From IMG/VR virus record IMGVR_UViG_3300034031_000001, positions 1 through 64,000 of that record: a DNA stretch of 64,000 nt, one strand, 5' to 3'. A model generated the notes under the pieces. The model was not told the DNA's origin, searched no databases, and was given only the letters and a program-made list of their open reading frames with translations. The stretch comes from a virus. A program made the translations under genes and the position numbers. Positions 2,704-7,376 of this stretch are shown here, in pieces (position 1 is the first letter of the stretch; the number at the start of each line of letters is the position of its first letter).

Positions 2704-2952
2704 CTATTTAACACGCTCTAAGAGAATATAATATCTGTTATTCCATCCATCACGTACAGTATCGCCCACTCTATAACTAGAGTCCAAATGGTTAAGATGT
2801 ATACCATCTTCAAAGAGATATCCACCTGAACTCATTTGTGTTGCCTGTCTAGTCCTAAATTTAACCTCTCCCTTATCAGGGGATGAACCACATGCATGTA
2901 GCATGATAATAGCCATTACAGCTAAGATGAGTAATCTAATATTATGTGTCAT
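2704..2952 (-). CDS. Small lipoprotein, 82 aa
   Basis: The N-terminus has a positively charged start, a hydrophobic core (LLILAVMAIIML) and a lipobox LHAC with Cys at residue 21, followed by GSSPDKGE. This is a type II signal peptide, so the mature protein should be lipidated and exported by the host. The 60-residue mature part is unrecognised. Phage lipoproteins often alter the host surface or block superinfection, but that role is inference. The start is preceded by the shared CACCCC leader. Confidence 0.65.
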   Translation of the reverse strand: MTHNIRLLILAVMAIIMLHACGSSPDKGEVKFRTRQATQMSSGGYLFEDGIHLNHLDSSYRVGDTVRDGWNNRYYILLERVK

Positions 2953-2976
2953 TGTTTTGGGGTGTTTAAATGATAT

Positions 2977-3123
2977 TTAACAGGCATCAATACTCACTAT
3001 ATCAGCTATAGGAATAGGCCATTCTGAGTTGTCAATAAGCCTGATAGAAGCTATATCTCCACTAAAGTCAATAGGGAGTATAGCTTCTAATTCAGCTGTT
3101 TTTGTCTTAATTATTACATTCAT
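2977..3123 (-). CDS. Very small hypothetical protein, 48 aa
   Basis: An open frame beginning MNVIIKTKTAELEAILPID and ending SIDAC. Its start lies 1 nt after the stop of the upstream gene 3125-3463, which supports a coupled gene in the leftward operon. It fills what would otherwise be a 170-nt gap. The protein is acidic and soluble with no recognised domain. Confidence 0.5.
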   Translation of the reverse strand: MNVIIKTKTAELEAILPIDFSGDIASIRLIDNSEWPIPIADIVSIDAC

Positions 3124-3124
3124 A

Positions 3125-3463
3125 TTATCCAGCTCTAAATGAGAAATTAGGTGGACTAGTCATCCCCTTATATCCATTGGTGAACTTAATACGTATCCTT
3201 GGTCTTGTCTCACCGTATATATGGCCTATACTGACATAGTCCTCTACTTTAGTGGATTCCTTATTAAGATTGAATTTCTCAGTTATAATCTTTACTGTTT
3301 CTTCAACCTTACTGTCGTCTAACAAGCTAAATCCTATAGTGTTTGATGATTTCGCATCATTATAGTCATACCCATCGGTACTACCATAAAATGAGAATGT
3401 AGATATGTCAATACCTTCGATATTGAGCGTTTTAAAGCTGTTTACTTGAATATTAAGTATCAT
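3125..3463 (-). CDS. Hypothetical protein, 112 aa
   Basis: Not recognised. The protein appears beta-rich in its N-terminal half (MILNIQVNSFKTLNIEGID) with a conserved-looking C-terminal segment RPRIRIKFTNGYKGMTSPP. Its start is immediately downstream of the structured RNA at 3499-3637, so that RNA would form its 5' untranslated region if co-transcribed. The downstream 48-aa gene starts 1 nt after its stop. Confidence 0.55.
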   Translation of the reverse strand: MILNIQVNSFKTLNIEGIDISTFSFYGSTDGYDYNDAKSSNTIGFSLLDDSKVEETVKIITEKFNLNKESTKVEDYVSIGHIYGETRPRIRIKFTNGYKGMTSPPNFSFRAG

Positions 3464-3498
3464 GTTTAAGATTTAATATGTGACCCCATAATGGACGC

Positions 3499-3637
3499 TT
3501 GCAGCCTAACACCTGTTTATACTCCCTGCAAGGAGTTATTAAAAGACTACCACACCAAGTCCTGTTCAGTGGTAACTAGTATTTCTACCCACCTTGGACG
3601 TGTGCTCGACACAATGGAGGTGTAGTAGCCTTTTAAT
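3499..3637 (-). ncRNA. Structured RNA with 19-bp closing stem, internal hairpins and candidate pseudoknot
   Basis: Bases 3538-3556 pair with 3619-3637 over 19 bp. Two positions are A·C mismatches in + strand RNA but become G·U wobbles in - strand RNA, so only the leftward transcript forms the stem without interruption. Inside the closing stem the - strand RNA forms GUGU/ACAC (loop CGAGC), GUCC/GGAC, GGUGG/CCACU and GUA-GAAA-UAC with a GNRA tetraloop. Just 3' of the stem, ACUCC/GGAGU (3521-3536) exposes loop UUGCAG, which can pair with CUGCAA (3499-3504). No known riboswitch or ribozyme core was recognised. It could be the cis-acting leader of gene 3125-3463 or a free small RNA. Confidence 0.6.
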
Positions 3638-3656
3638 CGTTCATCTTTAATGTTAT

Positions 3657-3962
3657 TTAAGCAGCTACTGATATATCATCTGCTATATCATCACTGGATT
3701 GACCTATTACTTGATTAATTAGATTTGTTGGTAAGGCTAGTGGATACAATGTCTGTATCTCATTCAACTCCCTTAATCCATCTTCATCTAACTCTCTACA
3801 CAAATCTAATAGACACTCAACCCTAATGTGTGCAGTATTTATCTGCTCCAACTTACTAGCGTCTGCGTGTCCTTGTGAAGTCATTAGGTCAATAACAGCC
3901 TGCTTGGCTCGTGCTGCACCCGATAGTCTGGATAACAGTAATGCTTGCAATTGTGCTGACAT
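3657..3962 (-). CDS. Small helical hypothetical protein, 101 aa
   Basis: Predominantly alpha-helical by composition (MSAQLQALLLSRLSGAARAK at the start, then Leu/Glu-rich helices) with an acidic C-terminus (DDIADDISVAA). No domain recognised and no membrane segment. It is flanked by the structured RNA on its 3' side and an almost 800-nt non-coding, hairpin-rich region on its 5' side, so it is isolated from the other leftward genes. Confidence 0.55.
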   Translation of the reverse strand: MSAQLQALLLSRLSGAARAKQAVIDLMTSQGHADASKLEQINTAHIRVECLLDLCRELDEDGLRELNEIQTLYPLALPTNLINQVIGQSSDDIADDISVAA

Positions 3963-4201
3963 GACTAATGTGTTTTAAATTGTTAATGCTATATATACCC
4001 TTAATATTATACTGTGAGCCAGCGTTAATAGCCCACAGTATAACATATAAACCTCACAATTCCGACCTAATGTGAGTAAATACACAGGATATTCGTGTAT
4101 TTGTGCCCGCTCCTCATCCCATCTTGCGTGATGCTGAGCTTATATATAACACAGTACTTGTCGAAGGTATTGCGCAAATATGCATAGTTTATATCAATAT
4201 T

Positions 4202-4285
4202 ATTACACACTACGCTAATAGAGAGGTGTGCCGACACCTTGTTTAGGTTAATGCCCTAGCTTTACTATTAAGCACAGTGTGTAAT
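4202..4285. ncRNA. Candidate three-way-junction RNA
   Basis: ATTACACACT (4202-4211) pairs perfectly with AGTGTGTAAT (4276-4285). An inner stem GCTAATAG/CTATTAAGC (4214-4221/4265-4273) follows, with a one-base bulge. It encloses two hairpins: AGGTGT-GCCG-ACACCT (4224-4239) and TAGG/CCTA (4244-4258). The fold is cloverleaf-like but lacks tRNA signatures (no T-loop, no anticodon arm). The strand cannot be fixed because the pairs are all Watson-Crick. Confidence 0.45.
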
Positions 4286-4332
4286 CATATTGCCCCACTA
4301 TTATGTGAGTATGTGTAGCCATTTGACTACGT

Positions 4333-4347
4333 GTTAATGCGATGTAT
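4333..4347. repeat. Copy 1 of the TTAATGCGATGTAT repeat
   Basis: GTTAATGCGATGTAT occurs here in the non-coding region. The 14-nt core recurs at 4485, 17766 and 62124 in the same orientation. Confidence 0.75.
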
Positions 4348-4429
4348 ATCAAGTAGAGTAATGCAAATTATAGTAGTTAAGAATGTGATGAAAACATCCC
4401 ATAACTACTAGCTCATATAACTCTCAAAC

Positions 4430-4461
4430 ATTTATAAATCAATATTAAACGTTTATAAACG
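4430..4461. repeat. Pair of AT-rich palindromes
   Basis: ATTTATAAAT (4430-4439) and CGTTTATAAACG (4450-4461) are two related palindromes in a very AT-rich stretch lying between the two local copies of the TTAATGCGATGTAT repeat. An AT-rich palindromic core flanked by direct repeats is a common origin layout, but this is inference. Confidence 0.45.
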
Positions 4462-4483
4462 ATTATTAGTTAATTAAATGCTT

Positions 4484-4506
4484 GTTAATGCGATGTATTG
4501 TCTAAA
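4484..4506. repeat. Copy 2 of the TTAATGCGATGTAT repeat (long form)
   Basis: Here the core is extended at both ends; a 23-nt block is identical to 17765-17787. The extension beyond the core reads TGTCTAAA. Confidence 0.8.
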
Positions 4507-4758
4507 TGAAGAAATAAATTTGGAAGTATGCTCCAAAACCACTATCTTCGCAGTAGCTATGTGAGTAGCACCTTAATGCAAACGTACTACGCCTTCGGCT
4601 AACCGCTACACTCCGTTCCGCTAAGCACAAAAAAGCTTCTTAAAACAAAGAGTTTGCTACTTACTAACACTCACTGATAGCGGATGCTGTGTCTTGTTCC
4701 GAAATACTATCTTACTCCAATCAATATCTATATGTTGTGAACCCAAGAATTAACCAGC

Positions 4759-5121
4759 TTATTGCTGGTCATTTCTGTTACTATTAGCTCTAGCTTCCAT
4801 TCTCATCTTATCTGCTTCCTTCCAGAACTCCTCTTGGCACTTATGTGATTCCTTCATAGACTCTGTGTTACGTGCTTGCATGAAGCGAGCAGTATCTAAG
4901 TCTGATGCACTTAGCCCACCAATAAGAACTTCCTCACCTTCAGGATTATACTCATTAGGATTACCTTTAGTTGCATCTCCTATAGGGTTCATAACAAATC
5001 CCCCAATTGGTTGAACATCAGGTAGTTGGAATGTAAATACAGCATTGCTGGCATTACTCTCTTGCATTTGGCGTAGCATTTCAAACACTACAGCTTGATT
5101 TAAATTAAGGGAAACTAGCAT
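4759..5121 (-). CDS. Hypothetical protein, 120 aa
   Basis: Not recognised. The N-terminus MLVSLNLNQAVVFEMLRQM is helical, the centre is Gly/Pro/Asn-rich, and the C-terminus is a charged helix (EEFWKEADKMRMEARAN). The frame extends 24 codons upstream to 5193, but I prefer ATG 5121. It is preceded by the A-rich leader ATCTAAATACA like other starts here, and the upstream extension has a phenylalanine run. A 6-bp hairpin (4754-4769) overlaps the stop and could end transcription, although its T-tail is poor. Confidence 0.6.
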   Translation of the reverse strand: MLVSLNLNQAVVFEMLRQMQESNASNAVFTFQLPDVQPIGGFVMNPIGDATKGNPNEYNPEGEEVLIGGLSASDLDTARFMQARNTESMKESHKCQEEFWKEADKMRMEARANSNRNDQQ

Positions 5122-5219
5122 TGTATTTAGATTTAGTTGATTACGTGAGAAAAAGAAAGAGGAGTGTATCATTATAATACACTCCCTTTTCATTTAGTCC
5201 TAGTTCAATTTACGAACTA

Positions 5220-5873
5220 TTACTTACCATCTTGAGCTGGAGTCTGTCCTCCACCACCGGGCTGTTCACCAGCACCAGCTGTGACATTGTCCATACGTGC
5301 AGCCTCAATCTGAGCTTGCAGTTGTTCAGGACTCAGTTCAGACTCATCGTTCTGGTTGTTATTACCACGAACAAGAGCTAGACGGCCAATCTTACCAACA
5401 CCACGTGCAGCGATAAGCTTGGCACGCTCTTGGTTAATCATGGTATTCTGCTCTGCACTACCACGTGCCAGCGCATCCATGTCATTCGGTACGAAGCGTC
5501 CAAGAGGATTCTTGCCCGGAGCACCTGATGTCCAAGCAATCTCGAAAGAATTGCCCTGCCATACTGGTGATGCAAACAACACCTGCTGTGTAACAGGGTC
5601 TTGGATTAGTGCAGTTCTTGGCGTACCATCTGCACCGTCAACACGCACGTTATCCATAACGTCTGCATACGCTTCGTATTCATCCTGATTGTTGAAGTTA
5701 ACAACATACAAGAAGAATACACTACCACCCGCTCGCCTGATAGGCTTAGGGTTACTACATAAGAACTTCAGCATACCAAACTTGGCAGCTGCTTCTCTTG
5801 CGGCGACTACGCCTGCATCATTTGGGTCAACTCCACGTAGCTGTGGGATGAAACCTTTGTTTGTACTTGCCAT
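5220..5873 (-). CDS. Abundant-type hypothetical protein, 217 aa
   Basis: A soluble protein with a compact N-terminal domain (FLCSNPKPIRRAGGSVFFLY around residues 37-56) and a disordered Gly/Pro/Gln tail (GEQPGGGGQTPAQDGK). The DNA is visibly more GC-rich and uses more C-ending codons than its neighbours, a common mark of a highly expressed gene. It is the first leftward gene of the divergent control region, with its own candidate -7 box. Single-strand DNA-binding or virion-associated roles are possible but unsupported by any motif I recognise. Confidence 0.6.
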   Translation of the reverse strand: MASTNKGFIPQLRGVDPNDAGVVAAREAAAKFGMLKFLCSNPKPIRRAGGSVFFLYVVNFNNQDEYEAYADVMDNVRVDGADGTPRTALIQDPVTQQVLFASPVWQGNSFEIAWTSGAPGKNPLGRFVPNDMDALARGSAEQNTMINQERAKLIAARGVGKIGRLALVRGNNNQNDESELSPEQLQAQIEAARMDNVTAGAGEQPGGGGQTPAQDGK

Positions 5874-5898
5874 AACATTTGTTTTAAGGCGTTAACGA

Positions 5899-5906
5899 TA
5901 AATATA
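5899..5906 (-). promoter_or_regulatory. Candidate leftward promoter -7 box
   Basis: Read leftwards this is TATATTTA, a one-mismatch match to TAnnTTTG, about 25 nt before the ATG of gene 5220-5873. No TTTG box is present 19 nt upstream, so the assignment is weak. Confidence 0.35.
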
Positions 5907-6105
5907 ACTACTTCCATAACGGATAGAAGCCTAGTGTTGGTTGCGCGCTGACATCTGTCTCGATGGACTGTTACTATTCCATTCTGAGCTGTGCCACGAT
6001 ACCGGGCACACCCCCACGCGCACAATCTAGTCCGGGCTAACTACACAGGGTGGTAAGCCCTCATATAGATATGTTGAACTTTGTAGGTTTTTTCCGGGGA
6101 AAATT

Positions 6106-6136
6106 TTTGGAAAATTCATCAAATAGACTATCTTTA
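6106..6136 (+). promoter_or_regulatory. Bacteroidota-type promoter of the rightward block
   Basis: TTTG (6106-6109), a 19-nt spacer, then TATCTTTA (6129-6136), matching TTTG-N19-TAnnTTTG with one change. The ATG of the first rightward gene begins 5 nt after the box, so the predicted transcript has almost no leader. Confidence 0.65.
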
Positions 6137-6140
6137 CGTT

Positions 6141-7376
6141 ATGAATTGGATACCTAGTCACGAGAAGGCAATACTAGATACTTTATGGGGCTATCCTAAT
6201 AGGGATGCTATACTAATACAAGGCAGGCAGATGGGGCGCACAAGTCTCATAGAAAGAATGCGTACACAGCAAATACAATATAACATAGCTATGGCATCAG
6301 CCCAAAGCTTAATAAATGATGCACAAATGGATACAGAACAAGAGAGATTATTGCAACAGCAGATACGTCAATTAGAGGAGAGAGTTGGTGTACATATAGT
6401 TGAGGGTCAAGTAAGTGGACAACCTACTAGTGGATTCTATCCTGAGGGGTCAGTAGATACAGGAGAACATACAGGCCCATCATCAAACTATATACATTGG
6501 AATAGTGCCCCAGCTCTAGGCCCAGTATATATAGATAACAATACAGCTAGGAACTATCTTAATGGGGAAATAAGTATTGGGAACACCTCCCCTAATGAAC
6601 AAATGGTGGGGCGCTTCACTAGTCAAGCAGCGATAAACAGTCTTAGTGGAGTGGTAAATCCATATAATGGTACTACAGTTCGCCCATACATAGTAGATGA
6701 GATAGGGCAAATGCCAATGACAGATAGAGCAGAAACATGGGCAAATGCTACAATAGCAGCTAACCCATTAGCTCAGATGATGCCAGTAGGAGATGGTAGC
6801 GCACAATATCATTATGATGAGACTACCAATGGATGGACATGGCAGGCACCAGTTAATACACCTATGCCATATGTTGTAGGAGTAGACCCTGTTAGTGCAC
6901 CGGGAATAGATGGTCAACCCTTTACAGTAAGACTAGATAGAGATGCCTTTGATTACCATACGGTAAATAGGGGAGGTGGTTTATATGAGACTATAAGGAA
7001 TTCAAGTGAACCTACTACTCCCTTAACTGCTGAAACAATTAGAGACACAATGCATCAGGTATTTAATGTACCTAGACCTCAGCGTAGGGTTCAAGTATTC
7101 ACTAATGAGGCAGGTATGCGCACCTTTAATGACGCCATGAGAGTAGATGCACGTACATCTTATGACTCTTTAACAAATAAAGTGGAGTATGGGATGCCAT
7201 TTGCACTTAGAGGTGACAACAGAATCTGGACAGCTAACTTCCCAGAAGCTAATAGTGCACATTTATGGTTCTGCTCATGCTTAGATGAGACAAAGATTAT
7301 AGCTGATTGGGATATGATACCTATAACTATAGTTCCAGATGAAGAAAAATTTGGAAATATGGATAAAAATACATAG
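6141..7376 (+). CDS. Unknown protein with terminase-like motifs, 411 aa
   Basis: First gene of the rightward block. Residues 24-35 (ILIQGRQMGRTS) resemble the terminase-style Walker A xRQxGKT with Lys replaced by Arg. YIVDEIGQMP around D186-E187 resembles a Walker B and echoes IIDEIGKIP of the TerL encoded at 12457. YVVGVDPVS near D249 resembles a nuclease motif. Two other segments (APGIDGQPFTVRL and RRVQVFTNEAGMRTF) echo the capsid protein at 19059. The centre (residues 40-90) is Gln/Glu-rich and helical. These echoes are short and their spacing differs from TerL, so I do not assign a function. The start follows a strong promoter by 5 nt. Confidence 0.6.
   Translation: MNWIPSHEKAILDTLWGYPNRDAILIQGRQMGRTSLIERMRTQQIQYNIAMASAQSLINDAQMDTEQERLLQQQIRQLEERVGVHIVEGQVSGQPTSGFYPEGSVDTGEHTGPSSNYIHWNSAPALGPVYIDNNTARNYLNGEISIGNTSPNEQMVGRFTSQAAINSLSGVVNPYNGTTVRPYIVDEIGQMPMTDRAETWANATIAANPLAQMMPVGDGSAQYHYDETTNGWTWQAPVNTPMPYVVGVDPVSAPGIDGQPFTVRLDRDAFDYHTVNRGGGLYETIRNSSEPTTPLTAETIRDTMHQVFNVPRPQRRVQVFTNEAGMRTFNDAMRVDARTSYDSLTNKVEYGMPFALRGDNRIWTANFPEANSAHLWFCSCLDETKIIADWDMIPITIVPDEEKFGNMDKNT

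Follow-up and report, generated by a model that had tools for sequence, protein, structure and literature searches.

A candidate pistol ribozyme abutting a long hairpin in the genome of a crAss-like phage

What is the structured RNA that lies between two short leftward genes of this virus, and what might it do there? The window analysed here comprises 64,000 nucleotides of IMG/VR record IMGVR_UViG_3300034031_000001, which is 64,486 bases long. An earlier note on this DNA had taken the phage to be crAss-like, and had described the interval 3499-3637 as an RNA under selection, read leftward and placed just before gene 3125-3463, in which no known ribozyme class was recognised. The first assignment agrees with the terminase and portal, which are nearest to those of Leptolyngbya phage Lbo-JY46 and then to crAss-like references; judged by these two genes, the phage is crAss-like. 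The leftward structure is real as well. Nonetheless, its class had been overlooked, and the genes around it are as follows:

3125 to 3463, minus strand: downstream gene, 112 aa, no family match
3657 to 3962, minus strand: upstream gene, 101 aa, no family match

The Rfam covariance search that the earlier note had proposed places a pistol self-cleaving ribozyme (RF02679) at 3536-3479 on the minus strand, with a score of 44.6 bits against a gathering score of 34.5 (E 6.6e-5 for the whole window and all families, 1.5e-8 for that family alone in the window's record). This is the single above-threshold Rfam match in the 64 kb. A match to snR31 at 2973-3120 was rejected, being below threshold, and the stretch is a 48-aa ORF. 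The interval originally described ends in the middle of the ribozyme, which extends 20 nt beyond it to 3479; the class was probably missed because the interval stops there, at the pseudoknot. The elements are as follows:

3479 to 3536, minus strand: candidate pistol self-cleaving ribozyme (RF02679), from the Rfam covariance model
3521 to 3536, minus strand: P1 hairpin ACUCC-UUGCAG-GGAGU, 5 bp, 3536-3532 pairing with 3525-3521, from the Rfam alignment
3531 to 3526, minus strand: pseudoknot strand 1, the P1 loop UUGCAG, from the Rfam alignment
3499 to 3504, minus strand: pseudoknot strand 2, CUGCAA, pairing with 3531-3526, from the Rfam alignment and covariation
3512-3510 with 3482-3480, minus strand: P2, three standard pairs plus G.A
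3495-3492 with 3488-3485, minus strand: P3, four pairs with a 3-nt loop
3483 to 3484, minus strand: predicted cleavage site G3484/U3483, in the GU junction between P3 and P2, from the alignment and the rule of PMC4604425

The six-pair pseudoknot noticed earlier thus stands as a pairing of UUGCAG with CUGCAA, but it is the P1-loop pseudoknot of a pistol and not part of an unknown RNA. Its covariation, which the earlier note had suggested checking, was followed in 81 distinct pattern matches unfiltered for pairing: all six pairs form in 60 of them and five of six in another 15 (at least five in 75 of 81), and several standard pair types occur at positions 2-5, indicating covariation. Pistol cleavage falls within the GU junction between P3 and P2 (PMC4604425), and the predicted cut at G3484/U3483 is well supported by the sequence. 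When the Rfam alignment is matched to env25 numbering, with roles taken from PMC6154101, the catalytic positions of the window copy read G40, C41, G42 and G33, with a purine (G) at position 32; an A32G mutant of the studied pistol remains active (PMC6154101). Given a score above gathering, P1 with its pseudoknot, P2 and P3 with the GU junction, and the catalytic core, the 3' part of the RNA is almost certainly a pistol ribozyme.

The P2 and P3 of this copy are weaker than average, its 44.6 bits lie below most phage pistols scored here, and a nested-fold model, which cannot represent the pseudoknot, gives P2 almost no probability. With such short P2 and P3 helices the ribozyme could be slow. 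To our knowledge, the biological job of pistol ribozymes has not been established. A full-text literature search for Crassvirales together with ribozymes led to a Crassvirales review which uses the word 'ribozyme' for self-splicing introns only.

On its 5' side, 1 nt away, the pistol is preceded by a long hairpin, which in turn begins 19 nt after the stop codon of the upstream gene 3657-3962:

3538 to 3637, minus strand: long hairpin, a 19-bp closing stem round 62 nt of interior, in which two inner helices have weak support
3619 to 3637 and 3538 to 3556, minus strand: the two arms of the 19-bp closing stem, from folding

The arms were recovered as the earlier note had described them, and the two non-Watson-Crick positions are indeed G3629.U3546 and U3624.G3551 on the minus strand, hence A.C on the plus strand. 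The minus-strand fold of the 139-nt interval 3499-3637 reaches -48.7 kcal/mol (z -3.9), which none of 200 shuffles equalled, against a weaker z of -2.5 for the plus strand. The stem region alone gives z -4.67 on the minus strand (1 of 1000 shuffles as stable) and z -2.88 on the plus strand (11 of 1000). The 19-bp stem is real and non-random. Its contents fared worse: the 62-nt interior has z -0.57, 262 of 1000 shuffles were as stable and pair probabilities are about 0.5-0.8, while the proposed GAAA tetraloop caps 3 bp only (GUA-GAAA-UAC) and is missing from the minimum-energy fold. Neither the helices within the stem nor the tetraloop is supported beyond chance. An Rfam search with the stem gave no family match, only a meaningless 8-bit match (E 9.4). 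A search through the neighbouring genes returned no relatives in viral_contigs or phages, and hence no homologue with which the hairpin could be aligned; sequence comparison of the hairpin with the fetched loci gave no convincing similarity.

The stretch from the upstream gene 3657-3962 to the stem yielded no promoter. On the plus strand the motif TTGTTAATGCGATGTAT occurs at 3980, 4331, 4482, 17763 and 62121, with 6 matches against 0.21 expected, and TTAATGCTATAT is found again in many crAss-like relatives, at two set distances from the terminase; the TTGTTAATGCGATGTAT/TTAATGCTATAT motif is probably a phage promoter, one copy standing about 85 nt before gene 17864. Three copies of this rightward motif fall in 3981-4758, about 780 nt with neither a convincing gene nor an Rfam match. 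Several long leftward hairpins lie in the same stretch (4004-4046, 4195-4292 and 4375-4412); they were considered as copies of the hairpin described above and rejected. Further on, a strong terminator-like hairpin at 5160-5186 (-) occupies the start of ORF 4759-5193, which suggests that the gene of this ORF starts later, near 5122.

How common is such an arrangement? Pattern scans with 5 or 4 bases before TTAGGC, the 4-base form fitting the window type and finding more, left 114 pistol-like sites after a filter on P1 and pseudoknot pairing, the window's own included. The scan of genome_contigs contributed 44 matches, one of which (L133) passed the pistol filter. Among 50 pistol records searched for a portal, nine had a match; eight of the nine have a pistol by the Rfam model, L174 among them below the family cut-off. 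The window and these eight crAss-like records agree in the placing of the pistol, which is on the strand opposite to the portal gene and 6-16 kb upstream of it, or about 27 kb in L149 if that record is circular. No pistol above the cut-off was found in the 80 records of terminase-based relatives (closest 40% identical), nor in five named reference phages. Some phages carry several pistols, with five in G005 (L006) and three in L175. In L229 (5714-5776, +), L215 (7387-7448, +) and L286 (2664-2725, -; overlap read by eye) the start codon lies inside P2, and the predicted cut, 1 nt before the AUG, would leave a nearly leaderless mRNA. In L229 and L261 alike, a shared non-coding block is followed by the gene MDIYYDNQRLFCEQ...; a pistol stands between the two in L229 but not in L261, where it lies one gene further on.

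The long hairpin is a rarer companion. Stems of at least 16 bp abut 2 of the 113 phage pistols (those of the window and L159), with 0.017 expected from shuffles, and the crAss-like pistols of L149 and L249 sit close behind a coding gene, leaving no room for a long hairpin. In more general terms, the 45 nt immediately 5' of phage pistols carry more structure than do matched gene ends of those contigs, with a mean z of -0.80 against -0.12 (p 2.5e-5), and more than windows farther upstream (p 6e-4), both p values being optimistic as they ignore contig relatedness. The locus of L159, also crAss-like, is the closest analogue of the window's: a terminator-like hairpin is followed by a 98-nt hairpin (a 22-bp stem with one bulge, z -4.8), a 7-nt linker, the pistol and a 21-nt leader. 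The L159 pistol shares the P1 loop TTGCAG with the window, and its P2 is nearly identical. The two hairpins are alike in architecture and length and not in sequence, so that common descent does not follow from the resemblance. Of the close kin of L159 (L291-L294), three contigs end short of the region and L294 has no pistol.

Other structured RNAs also lie beside pistols. A gap of 5 nt separates the L152 pistol from a GOLLD RNA on its 5' side (116.9 bits, under the gathering score of 150 but with E 2e-33). In L249 and L185 the order is reversed, GOLLD following directly 3' of the pistol, and in all three phages the two RNAs share a strand. Entries in which GOLLD stands beside a pistol on the same strand come from three phages, L249 (1867-2616, -), L380 and L381. 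L235 has a pistol ahead of an array of 20 tRNA matches (2857-6178, +), and L197 one ahead of a tmRNA match (2724-3201, -), on the same strand in both. The literature searched makes no mention of GOLLD together with a pistol or another self-cleaving RNA. In the window itself, searches for GOLLD and ROOL came up empty, a GOLLD covariance search of the record returned nothing at E 0.01, and there is no tRNA.

Taken together, the sequence supports the identity of the pistol, its cleavage site, the strand and the non-random stem. That the cut takes place during infection, and that the hairpin serves to protect the 3' end, is what we infer. As the leftward transcript emerges, the pistol would fold and cut itself between G3484 and U3483, 20 nt ahead of the AUG of gene 3125-3463. 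The 3' product would be the mRNA of that gene, its leader 20 nt long and its first nucleotide carrying a 5'-OH. A 2',3'-cyclic phosphate would terminate the 5' product, and the long hairpin may block 3' exonucleases, leaving the upstream mRNA, or the hairpin RNA, with a stable 3' end. We give even chances to this reading, in which the pistol cuts a leftward transcript into a short-leadered downstream mRNA and a hairpin-protected upstream 3' end.

Its main rival takes the hairpin to be what the cut releases, a structured non-coding RNA that exists separately and owes its 3' end to the pistol; in other phages pistols appear to play this part for GOLLD and perhaps for further RNAs. The GOLLD RNAs of L152, L249 and L185 each adjoin a pistol on their own strand, and the tRNA array of L235 and the tmRNA match of L197 stand behind pistols too. 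Moreover, L159 has a terminator-like hairpin ahead of its stem, which suggests that the stem forms a unit of its own in that phage; as this hairpin already splits the long hairpin from the upstream gene, mRNA protection is unlikely there. In the window, however, neither GOLLD nor ROOL is found, the stem matches no Rfam family, its interior is structured at chance level and no promoter precedes it, and here we regard a discrete RNA as unlikely. A broader form of the idea, in which the pistols of crAss-like and some other phages excise structured non-coding RNAs (GOLLD, this hairpin and possibly others) from polycistronic transcripts, the window hairpin being one such RNA, so far undescribed, whose 3' end a ribozyme makes, seems to us possible but doubtful.

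The stem might also have other roles. RNase III might process it, as it does the stems between T7 genes, the pistol then being a second, independent cut. The stems of the window (19 bp) and L159 (22 bp with one bulge) have roughly the length that this enzyme requires; yet with less than 150 nt between them the two cuts would be redundant, and we consider this role quite improbable. As for an intrinsic terminator or attenuator limiting read-through to the pistol and the next gene, the A-rich start, the G+C stem and UCUUUUAAU do recall one, and the sequence can be read as AAAA-GGCUACUACACC ... GGUGUGGUAGUC-UUUU. Yet the 62-nt interior takes the place of a short loop, the U-tract is weak, the L159 stem has none, and the stem is missing from the list of a terminator scan that allows loops of 3-8 only; we consider termination very unlikely. 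Finally, the stem could act as an insulator, shielding the pistol against upstream sequence and making its folding reliable. It does abut P1, and without it P1 pairing is 0.57-0.74 in two short contexts, but in most contexts its removal changes P1 little and P2 and P3 hardly at all, so that we give insulation scant credence. The main result is the identification: the RNA described as unknown contains half of a known ribozyme. The shared place of pistols upstream of the portal, their tendency to follow a hairpin and their abutment with GOLLD provide testable ideas on the job of these ribozymes, namely that they make mRNA ends and free structured RNAs.

Among known systems, the theta ribozymes of gut phages (HDV-like) are also self-cleaving and have been proposed to process structured phage RNA (PMC10879173); they differ in class from pistol and are tied to tRNAs, whereas the window has no tRNA. 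GOLLD (RF02032), the structured phage RNA that neighbours pistols in L152, L249 and L185, is ornate and hundreds of nucleotides long, and the window genome has no match to it. The RNase III sites of phage T7 are intergenic stems on polycistronic phage mRNA; at the window, in contrast, the predicted cut would be made by an adjoining ribozyme. The closest likeness is to RF02679 itself, with which the window RNA shares P1, P2, P3, the P1-loop pseudoknot, the conserved core and the GU junction, in a phage setting like that in PMC4604425. It departs from a typical member in its short P2 and P3, in its position behind a 19-bp hairpin and in being carried by a crAss-like phage.
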